DNA from: Terriglobia bacterium
Lineage (GTDB): Bacteria > Acidobacteriota > Terriglobia > JAIQFV01
Assembly: GCA_020073085.1 (NCBI GenBank)
Contig: JAIQFV010000010.1
Coordinates: forward strand, 186,001-250,000
Length of the DNA: 64,000 bases
Direction: 5' to 3'
Position numbers and translations under genes: made by a program. Positions within the stretch are counted from its first letter, which is position 1. Each line of letters opens with the position of its first letter. Positions 48,646-49,934 of this stretch are shown here, one piece after another. The notes under the pieces are model-generated. The model made no database searches. It was given only the letters and a program-made list of their open reading frames with translations, and was not told the DNA's origin.

Positions 48646-48959
48646 TAAGGAAACATTGTAATCTTCTTGGGGGAAAATCAGAAGTCGGAAGAGCAGGTGT
48701 TAGGTGTCGGGTGCCAGAGGGCAGAAGCGGAAGCCAGAAGCCGGGGGCCAGAAAAGTAGTTCTCAGTTGTCAGTTCTCAGTTGTCAGTTGCCAGAGGAAC
48801 GAACCAGCAGCCAGAGGCGGGAAGCCAGAAGCCGGAAGTCAGAGGTCGGAAGCCGGAAGTCAGAAGATGCAGTAGGGGTTTTAACTTTGAACTTTGAACC
48901 TTGAACCTGGAACTGGGTTTCAAGACTTTGGACTTTGAACATGGAACTTTGAACTCTTA
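48646..48959 (+). repeat. Heptamer-periodic intergenic tract
   Basis: A gene-free stretch of 310 bp made largely of three kinds of 7-bp units: CAGTTGT/CAGTTCT (48761-48792), GGAAGCC/AGAAGCC/GGAAGTC (about 48820-48865) and AACTTTG/AACCTTG/GACTTTG (about 48882-48955). Units vary by one or two bases. It separates the DedA-rhodanese gene from lipM and abuts the rhodanese TAA at 48960-48962. Confidence 0.7.
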
Positions 48960-49934
48960 TTACGAAAACCGGGGGAGCACGAGGATATCCTCAGCAGGGA
49001 CCGCTTCGACATCGCCTTTCATTTCCGTCCAGGCTTTGAAGCCACCGCGGATCACGAAGGCATTAAAACCCTTTTCTCGAAGGAGGTGCACCAGCCTGGT
49101 GCTTGTCGCATCGTTCCTTCAAGTGCAATACAAATATATCTCCTTGTCGCGAGGCAGTTTCTCAAGTTGCTCGTTGATGGACGCCGGCTCGATGCGAATG
49201 GAGCCTTTGATGCGCTGGGCGCCATCCTCGTAATAGCCATGGCTGCGCGAGTCGGCAATCAAGATCGCCTTTGACCATTTCGGATCGGATAGCTTCTCGG
49301 CCAACTCCTGAGCGCTCACCCGAGGCACTTCCCGGTAAAGTTGGTTCTTGGAGTAAATCCGGAACCGGTGAATGGCGTACCCTAAGAGGGCGAGAATAAA
49401 GAGCCAGAGGAAAATCTGACCCAGAGAATGAATGCGGTTCACAATGCGCTCGATCCCCCGGCTGAAGAAGAATCCGAGCGCCAGGAAGGGGACGATGTAA
49501 AGCAGGCTTCCCAGCAGATCGAGCGCGAGGAACTGGCGGAGCTTCATTCTCAGGCTCCCTGCCAGAGGAGGGGCCATGGTGTTGATGCCGGGAATGTACT
49601 TCGCAAAAACGAGGGTGATCCGTCCCCGCCTGTAAAACGATTCGGCGGACCGAAGGATGCAAGTCTCGGGGCTGGCGGAGACTTTGCAGAGAAATCCGAG
49701 AATCCACCAGCCTGACTTTCTGCCAAGAAAATAGAGGACCGTATCTCCCAACAACATCCCGAAGACCGCCGTCAACAGGACGATTGTGAGGCTCAGGGAA
49801 CCGAGCATCGACGCCGCGCCCGCCGCCAGAAGAAACGGGAACGCCGGGATCGGCAACCCCAGGGCCTCAAGAAAAACACTGGCGAATAGGATCGCATACC
49901 CGTAGCGATCAAGAAGATGCAAGATGTGGTCCAT
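48960..49934 (-). CDS. DedA-family membrane protein fused to rhodanese domain; in-frame TGA at the catalytic position (predicted selenoprotein)
   Basis: From the ATG at 49934 (GAGGAC upstream) the frame gives a DedA membrane domain (residues 1-200: EALGLPIPAFPFLLAAGAAS, LLGDTVLYFLGRKSG, RITLVFAKYIPGINTMAPPL) and a rhodanese domain (about 215-310: LIADSRSHGYYEDGAQRIKG, EIYLYCT, LLREKGFNAFVIRGGFKAW). Residue 272 is encoded by TGA (49119-49121) exactly where this rhodanese class has its active-site cysteine (Y-C-T-C-x-N-E/D-A-T-S; here Y-C-T-TGA-R-N-D-A-T-S). After the TGA the frame stays open for 52 more codons of normal rhodanese sequence to TAA at 48960-48962. A SECIS-like hairpin follows the TGA. 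Predicted length is 324 residues with selenocysteine. A recent nonsense mutation or an assembly error is the alternative. Confidence 0.72.
49079..49120 (-). promoter_or_regulatory. Candidate bacterial SECIS element
   Basis: Downstream of the TGA (49121-49119) the minus strand forms an upper stem GCACCA (49102-49097) / TGGTGC (49093-49088) with the loop GGC, starting 22 nt after the TGA. An outer stem GAAGGA (49120-49115) / TCCTTC (49084-49079) encloses it. A stem at 16-37 nt from the UGA and a G among the first loop bases is the established description of bacterial SECIS elements; the outer helix includes the UGA itself, which is also usual. Fold and function are inferred by eye. Confidence 0.6.

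Follow-up and report, generated by a model that had tools for sequence, protein, structure and literature searches.

The minus-strand gene at 49934..48960 raises a single question: is the TGA inside its rhodanese domain a codon for selenocysteine (Sec), or the lesion of a dead gene? It lies in a 64-kb window (the whole stretch of DNA analysed here, 64,000 nucleotides) from the 5.79-Mb, 98.7% complete genome of a soil acidobacterium. Our comparative analysis indicates that this is almost certainly a genuine selenoprotein gene, with the UGA of codon 272 read as Sec. SelB and Sec-tRNA(Sec) would recode this UGA, directed by a hairpin just downstream of it, to yield a 324-residue membrane protein in which a DedA domain is fused to a rhodanese domain.

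Reading frame and selenocysteine machinery

Read from its ATG at 49934 on the minus strand, the frame contains one internal stop, the TGA at 49121-49119 (codon 272), and continues to a TAA at 48962-48960, giving 324 residues when the TGA is counted as Sec. Standard gene calling would end the protein at residue 271. The initial annotation had described a single in-frame TGA followed by normal rhodanese sequence up to the TAA, and this description stands: the frame is intact, and the Pfam rhodanese match (PF00581, 48.9 bits against a cut-off of 22.2; residues 208-304, 49023..49313, minus strand) runs across the TGA. The N-terminal part matches the DedA/VTT family (PF09335, 44.8 bits against a cut-off of 33.9; residues 29-154, 49473..49850, minus strand) and appears as helices in an AlphaFold model of the fusion. 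This model has a mean pLDDT of 85 and a pTM of 0.68, at which the arrangement of the domains is uncertain. In the predicted layout a long helix links the DedA/VTT domain to a rhodanese domain bearing a C-x-U motif, formed by Cys270 (49125..49127, minus strand), which directly follows a modelled strand at residues 265-269, and the putative Sec272 (49119..49121, minus strand).

The same genome carries the complete set of genes needed to decode Sec, all four of which the initial annotation had singled out for a search. Profile searches returned SelA (563 bits), SelB (391 bits) and SelD (376 bits), and a tRNA-Sec was found at 71.9 bits, for which ARAGORN gives the anticodon TCA. Matches to the tRNA-Sec model RF01852 were counted only at 58 bits or more, because its gathering score is unspecific and other tRNAs, those of control genomes included, score 41-51 bits with it. 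The selD gene (L047 1501-2427, on contig C2) has one in-frame TGA of its own near its start (VKAAGU-AAKIG), at a position that we equate with the known Sec/Cys site of this protein. It is therefore a second likely selenoprotein gene in this genome, and SelD is probably a selenoprotein as well.

Exchange of Sec and Cys, and a hairpin kept with the TGA

A search of 60 related genomes gave a first set of 30 full-length fusions, which were read codon by codon; at the codon-272 column, TGA stands in 19 of them and TGC or TGT in the other 11. A second set, from a scan of an 84,980-species collection, comprises 80 loci, some of them shared with the first set and nearly all titled Acidobacteriota or Terriglobia, with 56 TGA and 24 Cys codons at this column. 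Once identical and incomplete sequences were dropped, the combined set held 106 full-length fusions, again nearly all acidobacterial. TGA occupies the column in 72 of these and a Cys codon in the other 34, with no other state. Homologues thus exchange Cys and Sec at exactly this column, as the initial annotation had proposed to check, and the half downstream of it is kept in Sec and Cys forms alike. In a quick maximum-likelihood tree the exchange takes at least 10 changes, five being forced by well-supported branches alone, so Sec and Cys have been swapped repeatedly. Several natural replacements inside a single clade make it possible to test what an enzyme gains from selenium.

All 19 genomes with first-set Sec forms contain both tRNA-Sec and SelB, as compared to 5 of 11 (tRNA-Sec, Fisher p = 0.0008) and 7 of 11 (SelB, Fisher p = 0.012) with Cys forms; these p-values serve as a guide only, since related genomes are not independent. 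The viral contigs searched held no relative. The bins that hold three close Cys-form fusions (L104, L109 and L124) are titled Gammaproteobacteria or Steroidobacteraceae; in the tree these three make up a single supported group among the acidobacterial sequences, which suggests gene transfer or mis-binning.

Downstream of the TGA lies the hairpin GCACCA-GGC-TGGTGC (49088..49102, minus strand), with a 6-bp stem, a 3-nt loop whose first nucleotide is G, and a folding energy of -8.7 kcal/mol. The initial annotation had put the hairpin 22 nt past the TGA, within a 16-37 nt range, and had noted a G at the head of its loop; we find that it is the loop that begins at this distance, the stem itself beginning 16 nt after the TGA. 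Published limits for bacterial SECIS elements are an apical loop of 3-9 nt, a stem of 4-16 bp, a G in the first two loop positions, a UGA-to-loop distance of 16-37 nt and a minimum free energy (MFE) of -7.5 or lower (PMC13188914). The hairpin of the source gene lies within every one of these. By itself it does not stand out: shuffled versions fold as well as the native sequence in 10 of 200 cases for the 21-nt stretch and in 66 of 200 for the 42-nt stretch. Single-sequence folding was accordingly dropped as evidence for a SECIS element, and comparison across relatives was used in its place. An Rfam scan of the hairpin region gave no matches.

The stretch from codon 272 to the hairpin is free of indels, which lets the five pairs be compared position by position in all sequences. 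It is this comparison that gives the hairpin its significance: 67 of the 69 distinct Sec sequences have the full 5-bp stem, compared with 1 of the 34 Cys sequences. Of the two Sec exceptions, L026 has only its outermost pair broken, and in L121 another strong hairpin forms (-18.2 kcal/mol). In the source gene and its nearest relatives, one G-C pair has become A-T through changes on both sides of the stem, which are accompanied by Ala-to-Thr and Ala-to-Val replacements. Codon choice is fixed in the Sec forms (Ala8 as GCC in 65/65, Val10 as GTG in 65/65, Ala11 as GCG in 66/66), and nucleotide 26 is G in 69/69 Sec sequences; the Cys forms use mixed codons at Ala8, Val10 and Ala11 and encode residues much like those of the Sec forms.

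These observations were compared with a null model in which synonymous codons were drawn at random from each gene's own usage (5000 draws). Among the first-set Sec sequences, 18 of 19 have the full stem, against a null mean of 1.1 and a maximum of 6 (p < 1/5000), while pairing in the Cys sequences is ordinary under the same model (p = 0.16). Selection thus acts on the RNA structure only in the forms whose codon is TGA. We regard this conservation as the strongest evidence for recoding. The proposed check against bacterial SECIS criteria has returned a hairpin that falls within the published limits and is conserved in TGA forms only.

Selection on the encoded protein was estimated by comparing the source gene with its nearest relative, a sequence from the same genus with 88% identity. 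The dN/dS values are 0.11 and 0.09 before the TGA and 0.12 after it, showing purifying selection of equal strength on either side. The corresponding dS values are 0.56 and 0.80 before and 0.29 after, the latter from 52 codons, so that the gap in dS rests on few changes. A lower dS after the TGA is expected if the RNA is constrained there too.

Together these data bear on the reading that the TGA is a nonsense mutation, either real or a sequencing artefact, and that the downstream half is dead. In keeping with such a lesion, gene calling stops at residue 271 and the hairpin by itself is unremarkable against shuffles. The column nonetheless holds TGA in 72 of 106 relatives, which come from many separate assemblies, the identical TGA recurring in dozens of separately assembled genomes. 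Purifying selection is equal on its two sides, the stem is maintained by synonymous codon choice in TGA forms only, and the genome has the full Sec machinery. A wholesale reassignment of TGA was also considered and is ruled out: TGA is the ordinary terminator of HrcA, LplA and an aldehyde dehydrogenase in the 64-kb window, and 17 Sec homologues use it both for Sec and as their final stop. With selection persisting after the TGA and TGA stops present elsewhere, we reject genome-wide reassignment along with pseudogene and sequencing error, the latter two having a negligible probability in our estimate. The preference of the initial annotation for Sec over a dead gene is borne out by the machinery, by a column restricted to TGA and Cys codons, by the hairpin of the TGA forms and by selection after the TGA.

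A separate matter is how often the codon is read through. UGA recoding competes with termination in bacteria, and the TGA might often terminate to give a DedA-only protein, with selenium supply switching on the rhodanese tail. The short product would contain the complete DedA domain plus half of the rhodanese. This form would, however, still bear a useless half-rhodanese, and 34 of the 106 homologues, as Cys forms, make the full protein constitutively. Regulated truncation is in our judgement unlikely, and we continue with the full-length, Sec-containing protein as the product of this gene.

The C-x-U motif and related selenoproteins

The motif reads Y-C-T-U in the source protein and Y/F-C-[T/S]-[U/C] across the relatives, with C270 and residue 272 (Cys or Sec) both invariant in 106/106. 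Foldseek matches to the model are nearly all rhodanese-like. The best is 3nhv (BH2092), whose loop is of equal length to that of the fusion and whose Y-C aligns on the Y-C of the fusion. Alignments place the classical nucleophile Cys at residue 272 in some cases (CoA-disulfide reductase rhodanese, 3iwh) and at C270 in others (6mxv profile alignment, BH2092). The initial annotation had located the TGA precisely at the active-site cysteine. What holds of this claim is that Sec would sit in an invariant C-x-U motif; on the exact position of the nucleophile the alignments are split between C270 and U272. It is plausible that the TGA falls precisely at the active-site cysteine, but it is safer to describe C-x-U as a putative redox or persulfide centre of two residues.

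Rhodanese selenoproteins are known in several forms, among them TsoB, a rhodanese/DsbD membrane fusion (PMC13188914). The initial annotation had likewise remarked that rhodanese-like selenoproteins had been predicted before. One such form is NCBIfam NF041203 (rhodanese_LYCAU, form 3; listed as CxU in the 2026 review PMC13188914), a rhodanese with an L-Y-C-x-U motif that matches 30/30 first-set fusions. Its model covers 126 positions of rhodanese only, without a membrane domain, whereas the fusion has DedA. The source protein scores 79.5 bits with it, under the cut-off of 115; across 61 genomes from the class, none of the proteins reaches that cut-off. Several relatives also encode stand-alone rhodaneses with one in-frame TGA (L147, L148, L150 and others), which match NF041203 below its cut-off, and some genomes hold both such a rhodanese and a DedA fusion.

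TsoB (NF045694) likewise joins a rhodanese to a membrane redox domain and contains Sec, but it has two Sec residues (UxxxxU) and a DsbD-like part where the source fusion has one Sec and a DedA part. Three of the 30 first-set fusions match NF045694 weakly, and the source protein does not match it at E 1e-5. DedA-rhodanese fusions are known too, for example PA1209 of P. aeruginosa, which is mentioned in passing; the passages on these fusions in PMC10127716 and PMC12893004 call the role of the rhodanese part unclear and do not mention selenocysteine. Such COG0586 DedA/PA1209-type fusions have the same order, VTT/DedA then rhodanese. The source-type fusions differ from COG0586 DedA in lacking two of four residues reported as essential and in having two invariant cysteines.

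No description of a DedA/VTT selenoprotein was found in the literature searched, which lay outside subscription journals, and any priority is provisional. On this basis, and with the NF041203 cut-off unreached, the fusions would represent a new architecture and a new subfamily of C-x-U rhodanese selenoproteins. What is new is the fusion to DedA, with its altered DedA domain; the stand-alone C-x-U rhodanese is an already named family. A membrane-fused family, common in Acidobacteriota (Terriglobia), would thereby be added to the bacterial selenoproteome.

An altered DedA domain and its possible function

COG0586 DedA proteins are held to flip undecaprenyl phosphate, and PMC10127716 reports as essential Glu39 and Asp51 of YghB, in reentrant helix 1, and Arg130 and Arg136, in reentrant helix 2. 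The fusions were aligned to YghB and compared with 12 stand-alone DedA proteins encoded in genomes of the same class. The equivalent of Glu39 is kept (E23, 99/106), and that of Arg130 is Lys in all (K112, 106/106). The position of Asp51 is non-acidic (A/S/V/I/M/F and others), and Asn, Ser, Ala or Gly stands for Arg136 at 118, so that two of the four published residues are lost. The stand-alone proteins have Arg136 in 12/12, Arg or Lys at 130, and an acid at 51 in all but one.

The fusions also have two invariant cysteines in the DedA domain, Cys83 (49686..49688, minus strand) and Cys92 (49659..49661, minus strand), each present in 106/106 fusions and in 1 of 12 stand-alone DedA proteins of the same class. 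The pair is absent from 11 of the 12; the lone exception, L141, has no rhodanese and is 40% identical to the fusions. Confidence of the AlphaFold model is weak at residues 81-100, the stretch that holds the two cysteines (pLDDT 63 and 68 for this stretch). With flippase residues lost and cysteines gained, the acquisition of a C-x-C/U rhodanese was very probably accompanied by a change of function in the membrane domain. The paired change yields a testable chemical hypothesis for the unexplained DedA-rhodanese fusions. Two stand-alone DedA proteins without a rhodanese, L145 2599-3495 and L146 2823-3548 (both in genome G041), carry a C83/C92-type cysteine pair, and beside each lies a similar neighbour protein, putatively DUF547-like in appearance.

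We tentatively propose that the fusion acts as a membrane-anchored thiol/selenol or persulfide relay, in which C-x-U would work with C83/C92. The rhodanese C-x-U would take up either the sulfur of a persulfide or an oxidised equivalent, a selenenyl-sulfide, and exchange it with Cys83/Cys92 of the DedA domain on the same chain; the latter domain would have given up undecaprenyl-phosphate flipping for sulfur or redox chemistry at the membrane. Contact between the Cys/Sec sites of the two domains, the direction of transfer and the substrate are put forward just as tentatively. Consistent with a relay, C83, C92, C270 and residue 272 (Cys/Sec) are invariant in 106/106, and the fusions have lost Asp51 and Arg136, flippase residues that stand-alone DedA proteins without the cysteines mostly keep. 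TsoB offers a precedent for a rhodanese joined to a membrane redox domain. Counting against a relay is L141, which has the cysteine pair without a fused rhodanese, and C83/C92 could instead be metal-binding or structural. If correct, the mechanism would amount to a redox or sulfane-sulfur relay of a new kind at the membrane.

The gene neighbourhood was weighed as a guide to function and set aside. The source gene is flanked by genes for YceI and lipoate-protein ligase. At related loci, polyprenyl synthetase, TatD, DUF520 and Met-tRNA ligase genes are each found upstream in 28-38 of 80, and CYTH downstream in 26 of 80. For polyprenyl synthetase the figure is 38 of 80 (e.g. L053 2992-3981); the gene shares the strand of the fusion and is upstream of it at a median distance of 614 nt. 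This arrangement reads as inherited gene order and is missing at the source locus, and the neighbours offer no consistent clue to function.

The polyprenyl synthetase gene in those 38 loci would fit a DedA domain that is still a flippase, for undecaprenyl phosphate or another polyprenyl lipid, with the Sec-rhodanese as its redox regulator. The fold and Glu23 (Glu39 of YghB) are retained, Lys112 takes the place of Arg130, and the NCBIfam DedA and UptA models match, far under their cut-offs. Against this, the equivalents of YghB Asp51 and Arg136, which passages of PMC10127716 report as essential, are lost, and the same genome has other DedA proteins with intact residues (L132, L133). The polyprenyl synthetase gene, moreover, is not beside the source gene and may reflect inherited gene order. 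We hold a retained flippase to be rather improbable, somewhat more so than the relay.

Rhodaneses carry sulfane sulfur, and the fusion might instead serve in uptake or detoxification of selenium or sulfur (e.g. selenite or a low-molecular-weight persulfide), the DedA domain being a conduit and the Sec-rhodanese an acceptor. A connection of DedA with selenite resistance or uptake was reported for Ralstonia metallidurans (Ledgham et al. 2005, cited in PMC8659212; PMC11422209). This is a single literature link that comes through citing papers, no selenium genes adjoin the source gene, and Cys forms are retained by genomes that lack the Sec machinery. We consider such a role less likely still than a retained flippase, and a relay between C-x-U and C83/C92 remains our tentative preference. 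Downstream of the gene, 48704-48955 is made up of degenerate 7-nt and 14-nt tandem repeats (e.g. AGTTCTCAGTTGTC, CCAGAAG and TTTGAAC), a stretch that is apparently non-coding.
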